Source: Phycisphaerales bacterium (GTDB lineage: Bacteria; Planctomycetota; Phycisphaerae; Phycisphaerales; UBA1924). From it: DNA of 64,000 bases. Shown in pieces: positions 47,283 to 56,291 of the stretch. The position numbers and the translations under genes are program-made. The stretch spans positions 1-64,000 of the forward strand of contig JAJDDC010000102.1 in NCBI GenBank assembly GCA_029260515.1, given 5' to 3'. How positions within the stretch are numbered: position 1 is the first letter of the stretch; every line of letters starts with the position of its first letter. The notes beneath the pieces are model-generated. The model was not told where the DNA came from, ran no database searches, and saw only the letters and a program-made list of their open reading frames with translations.

Positions 47283-49271
47283 ATGCCGATCCTCGCGGGG
47301 ACCAACATCGGGCACGCGTACGGGCACGACATCGTGCTCGAGGGGGTGTCGCTCTCGGTCGAGCCGGGCGAGCGGATCGGCGTGGTCGGGCGGAACGGGA
47401 CGGGCAAGAGCACGCTGCTCAAGATCCTGGGCGGCCTCCAGGCGTGTGATTCGGGGACGGTGACGCTCCAGAAGGGCGCGCGGGCGTCGTACCTGCACCA
47501 GGACCCGGACCTGGACCCCGCCGAGACGCTGCGGGGGGCGGCCGAGGAGGCGTTCGCCGAGCTGCACGCGATGCACACCGAGCTGGAGGGGGTGTACGAG
47601 GCGATGGGCTCGGCCCAAGGGGCGGCGCTCGAGAAGCTGATGCGTGAGCAGGAGCGGCTGGAGAAGGCGATCGAGGCCGCGGGCGGGTACGCGATCGACC
47701 ACCTGATCGACGCGGTGCTCCACGGCCTGGGGTTCGACGACACGCAGTTCAAGATCCGCGTCCGCGACCTGTCGGGGGGGCAGAAGGGGCGCCTGGCGCT
47801 GGCGCGGGCGCTGCTCGAGGGGCCCGACGTGCTGCTGCTCGACGAGCCGACGAACCACCTGGACCTGGCGGGGCGTGAGTGGCTCGAGGGGTTCTTGCGT
47901 GACGAGTTCCGCGGGGCGGTCGTTATGGTCTCGCACGACCGGTACCTGCTCGACCGGGTGGTGCACCGGATCGTGGAGGTCGAGCAGGCGCGGCTGATTG
48001 ATTACCCGGGCAACTACAGGGCCTTCCGCAAGCTGCGGGCCGAGCGCCGCGAGGCGCAGATGCGGGCGTACGAGAAGCAGCAGACCGAGTTTAAGCGCGA
48101 AGAGGCGTTCATCCGCAAGTACAAGGCCGGGCAGCGGGCCAAGCAGGCCAAGGGACGCGAGTCGCGCCTGGACCGGGCGAAGGAGGCCTCGACGCTCGAG
48201 CGCCCGATGGAGCTGGCGGAGCTGCGCCTGAGCCTGGCCAGGGCCGAGCGGACGGGCGACATCGTCGTCTCGGCCCGCGAGCTGAGCAAGAAGTACACGA
48301 ACGACGACGGCTCGGAGAAGGTGCTCTTCGACGACCTGAGTGTGAAGATCGGGCGCGGCGAGCGCTGGGGCATCATCGGGCCCAACGGCGCTGGCAAGAC
48401 CACGCTCGTGCGCACGCTCCTGGGCGAGATCAAGCCCGACTCGGGGGGCGTGCGCCTGGGCAGCAAGCTCGAGGTCGGGTACTTCCGCCAGTCCGACGAG
48501 GGGCTGGACCCCGAGCGGATGCTGTACCGACAGATGCAGGATCTGATCAAGAAAGAGACGAACGAGAAGGTCGTGCTCAGCGAACAGGAGGCGCGGAACC
48601 TGGCGGGTGCGTTCCTGTTCTCGGGGCGAGAGCAGGAGAAAGAGGTCGGCGTCTTGTCGGGCGGCGAGCGGGCGCGTGTGCGTCTGGCGGCGCTGCTCGC
48701 GTGCGCCAAGAACGTGCTCGTCCTCGACGAGCCGACGAACCATCTGGACATCCCCAGCGCCGAGCGGATCGAGGAGGCGCTTGCGCGGATCGACCCCGAC
48801 GACCCGAGGTCTGGCGGGGCGTTCGAGGGGACGCTGCTGCTCATCAGCCACGACCGGGCGCTGATCGACGCGACGTGCGACCACCTGCTCGTGCTCGACG
48901 GCGAGGGGGGCGCCGAGGTCTTCGCCGGCGGGTACACCGACTGGCACGACCGCCAGGCACGGCGCGCGCAGGAGGCGGATGACGCGGGCGGACGGCGGCG
49001 CGAGGCCAAGCCCGGCGGCGCGCGCGCGAACACGGTCGCGATGCCCACGAAGCCCGACGAGTCCAAAAGCAAGTTCTCGTGGATGTCGGTCGAGAAGATC
49101 GAGGCGCGGATCACGTTGCTCGAGTCGCGGGTGGGCGACATCGACCGGGAGCTGGCCGACCCGGACGTGTGGGCGGACGTGGCGCGGGCCAACCGCCTGA
49201 CCGAGGAGCGGGACCGGCTTCGGGGCGAGATGGAACCGTTGGAGGCCGAGTGGGTGAGGAAGGCGGAATGA
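47283..49271 (+). CDS. ABC-F family ATP-binding protein
   Basis: 662-aa soluble protein with two ABC ATPase domains, of the ABC-F translation-factor type (Uup/EttA). Domain 1 has GRNGTGKST (about 38-46), LSGGQKGRLALARALLEG and LLDEPTNHLD; domain 2 has GPNGAGKTT, LSGGERARVRLAALLA and LDEPTNHLD. A charged linker (about 240-310, RRAERREAQMRAYEKQQ) separates them; the C-terminal coiled coil (about 600-662) resembles Uup, which acts on DNA or ribosomes. TACAAT lies exactly 6 nt before the ATG. The next gene overlaps by ATGA. Confidence 0.92.
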   Translation: MPILAGTNIGHAYGHDIVLEGVSLSVEPGERIGVVGRNGTGKSTLLKILGGLQACDSGTVTLQKGARASYLHQDPDLDPAETLRGAAEEAFAELHAMHTELEGVYEAMGSAQGAALEKLMREQERLEKAIEAAGGYAIDHLIDAVLHGLGFDDTQFKIRVRDLSGGQKGRLALARALLEGPDVLLLDEPTNHLDLAGREWLEGFLRDEFRGAVVMVSHDRYLLDRVVHRIVEVEQARLIDYPGNYRAFRKLRAERREAQMRAYEKQQTEFKREEAFIRKYKAGQRAKQAKGRESRLDRAKEASTLERPMELAELRLSLARAERTGDIVVSARELSKKYTNDDGSEKVLFDDLSVKIGRGERWGIIGPNGAGKTTLVRTLLGEIKPDSGGVRLGSKLEVGYFRQSDEGLDPERMLYRQMQDLIKKETNEKVVLSEQEARNLAGAFLFSGREQEKEVGVLSGGERARVRLAALLACAKNVLVLDEPTNHLDIPSAERIEEALARIDPDDPRSGGAFEGTLLLISHDRALIDATCDHLLVLDGEGGAEVFAGGYTDWHDRQARRAQEADDAGGRRREAKPGGARANTVAMPTKPDESKSKFSWMSVEKIEARITLLESRVGDIDRELADPDVWADVARANRLTEERDRLRGEMEPLEAEWVRKAE

Positions 49272-50833: not shown

Positions 50834-51865
50834 TCACTGGGCCGCGAAGAAGCGTCGGTGGTGGGCCAGGATCTCGCGGCAGAGGCGCTGGTCGGGCTCG
50901 GGGTCTGCGACGTCGATCTCGAAGCTGCCGCCGAGCAGCAGGGCGTCCTCGCGGGGGAACATGTACTTGTACCCGTCGTGGACGATGTAGCCGAGTGGCT
51001 GGGGCTTGAGGTGCAAGAGCAGGCCCCGGGCGGGGAACATGGCGTGGTCGTCGAAGAGCTCGCGCGAGCCGAGGGCGAGGCAGTTGACGAGCACGGGCTC
51101 GGGGAGGGCGGCCAGCTCGTCGCGTGACGCGAAGGTGCGCTGGACGAAGCGGGCGCCACGGGCGGTCGCTTCGTCGGTGAGCGTGCGCAGGAAACGGGGT
51201 GTGTGGATGAAGTCGGTGTTAAAAACGCGTCCGGCGCGGGGCGGGCCCGGGATGGGGAGGCGCTCGAGGGGCGTGGGCGGTTCGAGCGTGCCGTTGTCGA
51301 AGTAGCGTGCCTCGTAAGGGGCGTAGTCTGGCTCGTAGACGGGGAGCTGCTCGACCCCCCACGTGTCCCGGTCGAGATCGAGGAACGCGCGGCGGGAGCG
51401 GTTGAGGACGTCGAGCAGCAGCGCGCGGGCGTCGGGGGTGGCGCCGAAGTCGATGCCGGTGGGGAGCCAGAGCGCGCCGGCGATGTTCGAGGTCGTGTCG
51501 TGGGCCTGCTTGGCGGCGTAGAGCGTGACCGCGTGGCCGCGGGACAGGAACTCGCGGGCGGTGGCGAGGGCGGTGACGCCGGCGCCGAGGACGGCGACGG
51601 GCGGGCGCGGCCCGGCTGCCCCTCCGGGGTCAGCCTTGGCGCCGGTCGCCTGCTCGACCAGGTCGGCGGCGCGTTGGGCGGAGCCGAAGCAGAGGGTGAC
51701 GCCGCACCCGCTCTGGCCGTAGTTGTGGACGAGGGTCTTTGCGCCGCCGGGCGTGTCGAGGGAATCGGTCTCGATGCGGAGGCCGCCCCTGCGGCATGGG
51801 CGGACGCCGGCGACCAGGCGGAGGACGGCGGCGTCGGAGAGGTCCGGAGCGGGGAGGGTAATCAT
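50834..51865 (-). CDS. FAD-dependent oxidoreductase of the D-amino-acid oxidase family, apparently circularly permuted
   Basis: 343-aa DAO-type flavoprotein. In normal DAO proteins the dinucleotide motif is N-terminal and the block G(L/F)RPxRxxxRLE...VIHNYGHGGxGxT is C-terminal. Here the second block comes first (residues 15-72: GVRPCRRGGLRIE, then LVHNYGQSGCGVTLCFGSA). The FAD loop follows as VAVLGAGVTALATAREFL (90-107) with IAGALWLP. The protein ends at LLLGGSFEI...HHRRFFAAQ, where ordinary members continue into the block now at the front. The substrate is unknown; no Shine-Dalgarno is evident. Confidence 0.78.
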   Translation of the reverse strand: MITLPAPDLSDAAVLRLVAGVRPCRRGGLRIETDSLDTPGGAKTLVHNYGQSGCGVTLCFGSAQRAADLVEQATGAKADPGGAAGPRPPVAVLGAGVTALATAREFLSRGHAVTLYAAKQAHDTTSNIAGALWLPTGIDFGATPDARALLLDVLNRSRRAFLDLDRDTWGVEQLPVYEPDYAPYEARYFDNGTLEPPTPLERLPIPGPPRAGRVFNTDFIHTPRFLRTLTDEATARGARFVQRTFASRDELAALPEPVLVNCLALGSRELFDDHAMFPARGLLLHLKPQPLGYIVHDGYKYMFPREDALLLGGSFEIDVADPEPDQRLCREILAHHRRFFAAQ

Positions 51866-51897: not shown

Positions 51898-52293
51898 ATG
51901 GACCGACCACCACCGAAGCAGCAAGAGTCGAAGAACTACCCGAGCAACCGGCTTGCTCGCAGGCTCCTCACGCTGGTGTTTGTAGTTGGGTGTGCGTTGT
52001 TTGTCATATCCCTCGGGCGTATTCGCTTGTGGCGAGACCCACTGTGGCCGACCGAGTGGTTGGGCGCCGCACGCCCCTGGGTCATGTGGGGAGGGCTTGG
52101 TTCGGCGGTGATCGCCGTCCTCGTGCTTGCCTTTCGTAACGAGCGGAGCGTCGCCCGTGAGAAGCGAGAACATGCACGCACGGAGCGAAACGCCTGCTCT
52201 CGGTGCGGCTACGACATGACGGGCTCGGCCGAGCGTGCGACTTGTCCGGAGTGCGGCTGGGACACCCGCCAGGTCTGGATCGGTGAAGACTGA
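51898..52293 (+). CDS. Small two-TM zinc-ribbon protein
   Basis: 131-aa membrane protein, unknown function. Two hydrophobic segments (about 21-39 and 59-80) are followed by a charged stretch and a C-terminal ribbon CSRCGYDMTGSAERATCPECG with 12 residues between pairs, as in the gene at 45984. GGAAGGGA precedes the ATG; TAGGCT lies 12 bases upstream. It is divergent from the permuted oxidoreductase gene. Confidence 0.75.
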   Translation: MDRPPPKQQESKNYPSNRLARRLLTLVFVVGCALFVISLGRIRLWRDPLWPTEWLGAARPWVMWGGLGSAVIAVLVLAFRNERSVAREKREHARTERNACSRCGYDMTGSAERATCPECGWDTRQVWIGED

Positions 52294-52295
52294 AC

Positions 52296-52787
52296 TCAGA
52301 GCGCCCGGACCGCCGCGAGCACTTCCTCGGCGTGCCCGGGGATCTCGACCTTGTCCCAGCGGCGCGCGACCTTGCCCTCCGCGTCGATGAGATAAGTAGT
52401 GCGGGCGATGCCCATGTACTTGCGGCCGTACATGGACTTCTCGACCCAGACGCCGTACTTGCGGCACACGAGCGGGTCGGGCTTCTTGTCCTTGTTCACG
52501 CGGTCGTCGGCGAGCAGGGGGTAGGTCAGCCCCTCCTTGTCCGCGAACTTCTTCTTGGACTTGGGCGGGAGGATGGAGATCGCCAGGACGCGTGCCCTGG
52601 AGCGTTTGAAGCGTGGGAGCAGGCCTTGGAACTGGCAGGCCTCGTCGGTGCAGCCGCTGGTCATGTCCTTGGGGTAGAAGAACAGGACGACGGGTGTGCC
52701 CTCGTGGTCTGAGAGCGTGTGGGTTGTGCCGTCCTGGTCCTCGAGTGAGAAGTCGGGGGCCTTGCGTCCTGGATTGATGAGGGGCAT
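52296..52787 (-). CDS. bcp: Thioredoxin-dependent peroxiredoxin, BCP type
   Basis: 163-aa cytoplasmic peroxidase reducing hydroperoxides with thioredoxin. The peroxidatic cysteine is in MTSGCTDEACQF with the resolving Cys five residues later; APDFSLEDQDG and VVLFFYPKD are typical. It contains extra Lys residues in PKSKKKFADKEGL relative to Escherichia coli Bcp. The start is the ATG at 52787, with a repeat-filled 280-bp stretch upstream. Confidence 0.92.
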   Translation of the reverse strand: MPLINPGRKAPDFSLEDQDGTTHTLSDHEGTPVVLFFYPKDMTSGCTDEACQFQGLLPRFKRSRARVLAISILPPKSKKKFADKEGLTYPLLADDRVNKDKKPDPLVCRKYGVWVEKSMYGRKYMGIARTTYLIDAEGKVARRWDKVEIPGHAEEVLAAVRAL

Positions 52788-54401: not shown

Positions 54402-56291
54402 TTACTCGACGTCCTTGCCCTCGACGACGTCCTCGATCGGGGGCGCCTCGTGGGGCATGTCCTCGCCCGACTTCATGTGCCTGAAGTAGGTGTGGTAGGC
54501 GCTCATGGCCTTGAAGCCGAAGATGAGCATGATGGGGATGTTGGCGACCAGCATGACGCCCAGGCCGAGCGTGGTCCACATGTCGAGCTGGTGGTCGTTG
54601 GCGATGAAGGCCTGCTTGGTGCCGTCGGAGGCGGTGAACAGCGGCATCGCGAGGAGGGTGGTCAGCAGGATGAGCAGGCAATAGATGAGCTTGTAGAGCA
54701 GGACGACCGGCTTGATGCCCTTGTCGCCAATCCATCCGAAGAGGTAGTAGACGCCCTGCTCGCCGTAGTACGACCAGGAGATCATGGTCGAGACGGCGAA
54801 GAGCCAGGCGGCGAAGGTGACGAGCCACTTGCCCAGGCCCGGGAAGTTGCGGTCGAAGGCGTAGGCGGTGAGCGAGGCGCCGGCGTAGTCGCCGTAGATG
54901 CCCAGGTCGGGATCGCCCTCTTCGTTGGGTCGGAATGTCGGGACGGCCTCGGACACGAGCGTGCCCCACGCGACTGTGAAGACAGTCTGGCCCGCCTCGT
55001 TCTCCGACTTCTTGACCGAGCCCGTGATCTTGCGGAGGTCGCGCCCGGTGTTGGAATCGACGTCGGCCTCAACGACGACGAAGACTGTTTCGCCGTCACG
55101 CCAGCCCGCGTCGTTCTCGCCTGTCTTGCGGATACGGCGGGCGTCCTGGGTCATACGAGGGAGGGTGGTGTCCTCGAGGGTCCAGGTATTCTCGATCGGG
55201 CCGTCGTTGTTGGTGGCCTGGACGACCTGGACCTGGGAAACCGAGTCGAAGGCGGCCTCGGCCTCGCGGTTGTACGCGCCCGAGGAGAGGATGACGAGGG
55301 CGGTGAGCGTGCAGACGACGATGGTGTCGATGAATGGCTCGAGGCCGGCGACGACTCCCTCGCGGACGGGCTCGTCGGTCTTGGCGGCGGAGTGTGCGAT
55401 GGGGCTGGAGCCCTGGCCGGCCTCGGAGGAGAAGAGTGCCCGCTTGATGCCCCACATGGCGGCGTAGCCGAAGGTGCCGCCGAGGAAGGCGCCGGTGGCG
55501 TCGGGAGACTCGCCACCCAGGAAGCTGGGCAGGCCGCTCTTGACGATGAGCCCGAGCATGGCGGGGATCTCGCCGGCGTTGACGCCGAGGACGACGAATG
55601 CGGCGAGCATGTAGATGATGCACATGACGGGCACGATCTTGCCCGCGACGGAACCGATGCGCTTGATGCCGCCGATGATGACGAGGCCGACGACGACGGT
55701 GAGAACGATGCCGGTGACGCCCTGGGGGACCTGGAAGTAGGTGAAGGTGATGTCGGCGACGCTCCAGGCCTGGAACATGTTGCCGCCGGTGAGCGCGGAG
55801 ATGAGGAGCGTGATGACGAAGATGCCGCCGATGATCGCGCCGATAGGCCCGAGCCCCCACTCCTTGAACCCTTCCTTGACGACGAACATGGGGCCGCCGT
55901 GCGGGTTGTCGGGATCATCGGTGTTGCGGTAGAGCATGGACTGGGTGACCTCGGTCATTTTCAGCGCCATGCCGAGGATCCCGATGACCCACATCCAGAG
56001 GACAGCGCCCGGCCCGCCCAGCGCGACGGCGACGGCGACGCCTGCGATGTTGCCGAGGCCGACGGTCGCGGACAAGGCGGCGGAGAGCGCCTGGAAGTGG
56101 TTGATGGCGCCCGGGTCGTCCTTGTCGTCGTACTTGCCCCGGACAACGGAGACTCCGTGGGTCAGGGCGCGGTACTGCCCGAAGATGGACCAGAAGGTGA
56201 AGAGGGCGCCGGTGAAGAGGAGGGCGTAGACGGTGTAGTTGGAAAAGAGGATGCCGTTGAGCGTCCCGACGAAGTTGTTGACAGCTTCCAT
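54402..56291 (-). CDS. Alanine/glycine:cation symporter (AGCS family)
   Basis: 629-aa sodium-coupled amino acid transporter. Family landmarks are ALSATVGLGNIAGVAVAVALGGPG (shown from 71), MGALKMTEVTQ-like ILGMALKMTEV, GGPMF, and SSEAGQGSSPIAHSAAKTDEP. About ten membrane helices are visible. Between the helix ending LSSGAYN and the segment GASLTAYAFDRNF there is a hydrophilic insertion (about 341-468) absent from typical members; it contains TLEDTTLPRMTQDARRIRKT and VFVVVEADVDS. It is the only large gene in its unit; AGATCGG precedes the ATG. Confidence 0.92.
   Translation of the reverse strand: MEAVNNFVGTLNGILFSNYTVYALLFTGALFTFWSIFGQYRALTHGVSVVRGKYDDKDDPGAINHFQALSAALSATVGLGNIAGVAVAVALGGPGAVLWMWVIGILGMALKMTEVTQSMLYRNTDDPDNPHGGPMFVVKEGFKEWGLGPIGAIIGGIFVITLLISALTGGNMFQAWSVADITFTYFQVPQGVTGIVLTVVVGLVIIGGIKRIGSVAGKIVPVMCIIYMLAAFVVLGVNAGEIPAMLGLIVKSGLPSFLGGESPDATGAFLGGTFGYAAMWGIKRALFSSEAGQGSSPIAHSAAKTDEPVREGVVAGLEPFIDTIVVCTLTALVILSSGAYNREAEAAFDSVSQVQVVQATNNDGPIENTWTLEDTTLPRMTQDARRIRKTGENDAGWRDGETVFVVVEADVDSNTGRDLRKITGSVKKSENEAGQTVFTVAWGTLVSEAVPTFRPNEEGDPDLGIYGDYAGASLTAYAFDRNFPGLGKWLVTFAAWLFAVSTMISWSYYGEQGVYYLFGWIGDKGIKPVVLLYKLIYCLLILLTTLLAMPLFTASDGTKQAFIANDHQLDMWTTLGLGVMLVANIPIMLIFGFKAMSAYHTYFRHMKSGEDMPHEAPPIEDVVEGKDVE

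Follow-up and report, generated by a model that had tools for sequence, protein, structure and literature searches.

The 64,000-nucleotide stretch of Phycisphaerales DNA analysed here (the window) carries on its minus strand a gene for a D-amino-acid-oxidase (DAO)-type flavoprotein, P0001, whose two main segments stand in the reverse of the order found in D-amino-acid oxidase (DAAO). The reading frame runs from an ATG start at 51865 to a terminal stop at 50834, and its 343 codons are uninterrupted, in agreement with the initial annotation; reading the same interval on the plus strand as a gene was ruled out by an internal stop. The gene, its parts and its relevant neighbours are:

50834 to 51865, minus strand: permuted DAO-type flavoprotein gene, P0001, 343 amino acids plus stop (PF01266, E 3.9e-27, two stretches)
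51644 to 51865, minus strand: P0001 residues 1-74, corresponding to the C-terminal block of ordinary DAAO and D-aspartate oxidase (sequence match, model, conservation)
51602 to 51643, minus strand: P0001 residues 75-88, linker that joins the former C and N termini (alignment, rotation optimum 72-87)
50837 to 51601, minus strand: P0001 residues 89-343, corresponding to the N-terminal and middle part of ordinary DAAO and starting with the FAD loop (structural alignment)
51569 to 51586, minus strand: GxGxx(G/A) FAD loop, residues 94-99, GAGVTA (sequence, conservation)
47283 to 49271, plus strand: ABC-F type ATPase, found after the permuted gene and on the same strand in 10 related loci
52299 to 52787, minus strand: AhpC/TSA peroxiredoxin, same family within about 6 kb in 6 of 14 related loci
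54402 to 56291, minus strand: sodium:alanine symporter family protein, a near neighbour of the gene in 13 of 14 related loci

The block that closes an ordinary DAO protein had been described as coming first in P0001, with the FAD loop VAVLGAGVTAL following at residues 90-100, and this is what the sequence reads: the C-terminal DAO block, residues 7-74 (VRPCR...HNYGQSGCG), and within it VAGVRPCRRGGLRIE...LVHNYGQSGCGVTL (about 17-58), precedes the loop, the reverse of the usual PF01266 order of an N-terminal FAD loop and a C-terminal GxRP/HNYGHGG block. The segment spanning residues 1-74 contains R22, aligned with pig DAAO Arg283, and HNYGQSGCG (47-55), and Y301, aligned with pig DAAO Tyr228, sits within residues 89-343. 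The protein ends at LLLGGSFEI...HHRRFFAAQ, where ordinary members go on into G(F/L)RP, which confirms a further point of the initial annotation. As to the linker that it proposed, the junction at about residues 73-88 stands (best cut 72-87), but the Gly/Pro-rich form of about 14 residues is peculiar to P0001, L001 and L002; it exceeds the usual length by about 10 residues, most relatives having a join of about 4-10 residues in the alignment and in a listing of linkers.

When compared by phmmer with human D-aspartate oxidase, P0001 gave two segments, residues 7-77 against 272-341 (independent E 6.9e-5) and residues 212-334 against 142-265 (independent E 3.2e-7), and given that both match the same protein with their order swapped, chance is excluded; the order was likewise swapped against pig DAAO. 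We also rotated the protein in silico by moving the part ahead of the FAD loop to the end. PF01266 matched native P0001 in two stretches at 96.1 bits, above the curated cut-off of 27.9, and the rotated protein in one stretch covering profile positions 2-353 of 353, at 106.6 bits. With a profile of length 312 built from 27 linear homologs only, the best single match to native P0001 scored 133.7 bits over positions 2-250, and the protein rotated at cuts 72-87 scored 192.8 bits over positions 2-311. Scanned in steps of 3 residues, the score formed a plateau maximum at cuts 72-87, that is, at the linker, and was lower at other cuts. Rotation therefore yields a single end-to-end alignment with the best cut at the junction, as is the mark of a circular permutant.

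An AlphaFold2 model of P0001, made with 16 natural homologs, had a mean pLDDT of 88.3 and a pTM of 0.89, with pLDDT 83-97 in the N-terminal block through residue 70. Its elements are three strands and a helix (E14-25, E30-38, E41-49, H52-74) followed by the FAD strand. A pTM of 0.89 argues against an unplaced N-terminal block, given that 22% of the chain adrift would not give such a value. In the alignment of the model, residues 85-343 matched residues 1-266 of human D-aspartate oxidase (6rkf_A; Z 20.2, rmsd 2.8, 252 residues), and the predicted fold of residues 88-343 matched DAAO 1-271 (1kif, 2du8) with Z about 19.5; that only the chain from residue 85 on was aligned is expected for a permutant under order-dependent alignment. 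In the linear planctomycete sister L068 (model pTM 0.91) the corresponding strands and helix come last (257-314), and the same aligner matched residues 1-315 of L068 end to end with DAAO 1-336 (315 residues, Z 42). From the high pTM, the order of the secondary-structure elements and the conserved active-site Arg, we infer that the N-terminal block occupies the DAAO C-terminal position in the predicted fold. Sequence searches gave no solved structure in the permuted order; every DAAO-type match in the PDB was in two pieces.

P0001 thus shares with DAAO (pig and human) the FAD loop, the HxYGHGG segment, the equivalents of Arg283 and Tyr228 and the predicted fold of residues 88-343, but the DAAO segment 272-340 comes first, the loop ahead of the catalytic Tyr is shorter, and identity is about 22%. 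Human D-aspartate oxidase is its best single match in both sequence and structure, and differs in having the ordinary order. The nearest linear relatives are planctomycete DAAO-like proteins such as L068, L067 and L030, which have the conserved residues alike but the ordinary order. ThiO glycine oxidase (TIGR02352) has the FAD loop and fold class in common with P0001, whereas the score against its profile was 36.5 bits for a cut-off of 250.8, with the match limited to residues 90-132.

Metagenome-assembled genomes supply many members of the family, and it might be supposed that fragments of a linear gene had been joined in the wrong order in assembly or annotation. However, the search for homologs of the same order, which had been proposed as a check, recovered at least 40 distinct ones with uninterrupted frames, from many independent planctomycete assemblies and including complete plasmid records, and the genes flanking them are conserved; with so many independent loci sharing the order we rejected an artefact, the likelihood of which we consider negligible. 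The claim of a circular permutation relative to DAO proteins is accordingly supported by the sequence tests and by these homologs, and is consistent with the predicted structure, for which the linear control aligned end to end. The permuted form is an old, conserved family in several bacterial phyla and not a sequencing error.

Scanning genome contigs gave 15 relatives, all from Phycisphaerales or other Planctomycetota assemblies, of which 14 have the same order over nearly their full length and one is truncated by the end of its contig. In whole-genome searches the permuted order turned up in 9 of 392 planctomycete genomes drawn from across the phylum and in 21 of 150 closer relatives; other genomes of those same groups have linear DAAO-like genes. 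P0001 is the sole match to the permuted-family profile in its own genome. The order also occurs on recorded plasmids or large replicons of Rhizobium ruizarguesonis, Bradyrhizobium elkanii, Niveispirillum cyanobacteriorum and Nonomuraea gerenzanensis, where the genes, if annotated, are called only 'FAD-dependent oxidoreductase'. A phage origin was considered and set aside, a phage collection having given no match. One relative (G572:C24:18542-25850) carries a pair of permuted DAO genes separated by about 6 kb, and in 37 Burkholderia plasmid records (e.g. Burkholderia glumae NC_012718.1:59099-59221) the match is confined to the HNYGHGG block.

For a tree, permuted sequences were first recast in linear order and combined with linear proteins from planctomycetes and a few plasmids, giving 66 proteins (39 permuted, 27 linear) with L109, the longest-branched permuted row, left out. 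One branch divides the 39 from the 27 (97% ultrafast bootstrap, 83% SH-aLRT); in a quicker tree that included L109 the support for this split was 72. The alternative, that the permutation arose several times independently, draws on the long branches and weak placement of L087 and L109 in the quick tree and on the restriction of the linear sample to planctomycetes and a few plasmids. Against it, 98% of bootstrap trees need no more than one order change, and all permuted members break at the identical point, immediately ahead of the G(L/V)RP strand, so that repeated origin appears quite improbable. A single origin is in our view supported rather than proven by these sequence comparisons. In such an event a linear DAAO gene would probably have been duplicated in tandem and fused, with loss of the outer parts, or else have passed through fission and fusion; these are the standard routes to permutation (PMC3320104), and both are possible for the DAO permutant. 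In a six-frame profile search of the loci checked we found neither leftover copies of either segment beside permuted genes nor an intermediate with a C-M-C duplication. A 756-amino-acid open frame around L028, considered as a duplication intermediate, proved to be only an in-frame upstream extension whose last part is the permuted gene.

In DAAO, a textbook flavoenzyme, the FAD-binding strand opens the chain, a position usually regarded as fixed. A 1998 note on circular permutation reportedly concerns a different, beta-barrel flavin domain. In the freely available literature on circular permutation together with D-amino acid oxidase or flavoproteins, we found no account of this permuted family, an absence that is not proof. 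Natural permutations have precedents in saposin/swaposin, DNA methyltransferases and transhydrogenase, described in a review without mention of FAD, flavin or oxidases (PMC3320104). The fold and chemistry considered here are known; as far as we have checked, the order of connection is new.

Residues were mapped from phmmer alignments to DAAO and D-aspartate oxidase, with the DAAO roles (Arg283 for the substrate carboxylate, Tyr228 as catalytic, and Tyr224) taken by us as established. The carboxylate Arg, R22 in P0001, is present, as is Arg25, in every permuted (40 of 40) and every linear (27 of 27) protein; the catalytic Tyr, Y301, is present in 39 of 40 and 26 of 27. His47, Tyr49 and Gly50 occur in every sequence of both sets (40 permuted, 27 linear), and all permuted members retain the flavin segment HxYG(H/Q)xG. 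Y299 of P0001 aligns with Tyr224 through gaps; it is kept mainly in the window's clade and has no sure equivalent outside it. P0001 itself has two replacements of glycine: the third Gly of the FAD loop is Ala (G99A, 51569-51571), as in L001 and L002, and Gly52 of HNYGHGG is Ser (G52S, 51710-51712), which is unique among the 40. Arg216 and Arg237 of human D-aspartate oxidase, which bind the acidic side chain, align with His296 and Phe315 in P0001. Given that the carboxylate Arg, the Tyr and the flavin segment are kept and the D-aspartate oxidase arginines are replaced, P0001 is best read as DAAO-like, for a neutral amino acid.

Among related Phycisphaerales the permuted gene adjoins panB and has the ABC-F gene after it, with the symporter near and the AhpC/TSA peroxiredoxin often near; a DegP-like protease also belongs to this conserved neighbourhood. 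The window retains these neighbours in a somewhat rearranged order. A combination of alanine import, D-alanine oxidation and removal of H2O2 would fit, a reading weakened by the mixed strands and by general synteny; because the chromosomal conservation spans mixed strands, the neighbours do not prove a pathway. A plus-strand frame at 51898-52293, divergent from the oxidase gene, encodes a small protein that is predicted to lie in the membrane, bears a zinc-ribbon-like CxxC...CxxC motif at its C terminus and has no Pfam match. On plasmids of Rhizobium (L084:3560-7786) and Bradyrhizobium (L086:3429-7756) the permuted gene is the central one of a three-gene cassette, flanked by genes for a berberine-bridge-type FAD enzyme and a thiamine-diphosphate enzyme, with copper-protein genes near; this may represent an unknown pathway.

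The most likely identity of P0001 is a predicted cytoplasmic D-amino-acid oxidase. The old C-terminal segment, about 70 residues predicted to fold as beta-beta-beta-alpha and bearing the carboxylate Arg and HxYGHGG, now comes first, and the short linker ties it to the FAD-binding strand that formerly stood at the N terminus. The chain now begins and ends in the loop that connects the helix following LGG(S/T/C)F with the strand preceding G(L/V)RP, and it would be expected to form the same GR2-type FAD fold and active site. A D-amino acid, or a similar alpha-amino acid, would be oxidized to the imino acid, and the electrons of FADH2 would pass to oxygen with release of H2O2, as the residues and neighbours suggest. 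It might instead be proposed that the same permuted fold serves another function, as a dehydrogenase or with another amine, imino acid or glycine-like substrate and an electron carrier other than oxygen, given that the Arg and a single Tyr are all that is kept throughout, that the Tyr224 position and the active-site lid differ, that the rhizobial context is unlike that in planctomycetes, and that the DAO superfamily spans many substrates. Yet the carboxylate Arg and HxYGHGG are as in true DAAO and D-aspartate oxidase, and these two enzymes are the top matches in sequence and structure, above the glycine, sarcosine and proline enzymes, so we regard another function as unlikely, if still a serious contender. 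The reading that best accounts for the observations jointly, and one that we hold with good confidence, is that P0001 is a permuted DAO member of predicted GR2-type fold that would oxidize amino acids, with a probable single origin of the permutation and a cytoplasmic location in the window's clade.

In many permuted proteins outside the window's clade the permuted block is preceded by a twin-arginine motif and a hydrophobic stretch, frequently with a lipobox cysteine at the end of it. A simple rule, a heuristic on motifs, called such signals in 11 of 40 permuted proteins, and L058 was recognized by eye; L109 has a Sec-type lipoprotein signal. Permuted homologs with twin-arginine or lipoprotein-like signals are L056, L057, L059, L060, L061, L062, L087, L101, L103, L105, L106 and L118. 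P0001 and its clade of 23 show no such signals. Two matches of the rule among linear proteins were unconvincing as signals, being probably in-frame sequence ahead of the true start. Judged from these motifs, the signal-bearing homologs are probably exported as folded flavoproteins. Export may have accompanied the permutation, since the N terminus, and hence the signal peptide, has been moved away from the FAD-binding strand. We therefore offer, as a tentative scheme that we would not yet favor, an undescribed and ancient family of permuted DAAO proteins with a single origin, spread over Planctomycetota, Alphaproteobacteria and Actinomycetota, in which twin-arginine export of the folded, FAD-loaded enzyme may have accompanied the permutation and the window's clade later became cytoplasmic again.

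A permutant that keeps its active-site residues and has linear sisters within one phylum provides a direct test of the N-terminal start of the FAD domain, and such a permuted/linear pair can probe contributions to folding, FAD loading, export and stability. The rearranged fold has been hidden among genes annotated only as 'FAD-dependent oxidoreductase', and order-dependent domain searches give two partial matches. Three contigs classed as viral in IMG/VR (L116, L117 and L118) also carry permuted DAO genes and may be misclassified bacterial DNA; the protein on L118 bears another of the N-terminal signals.
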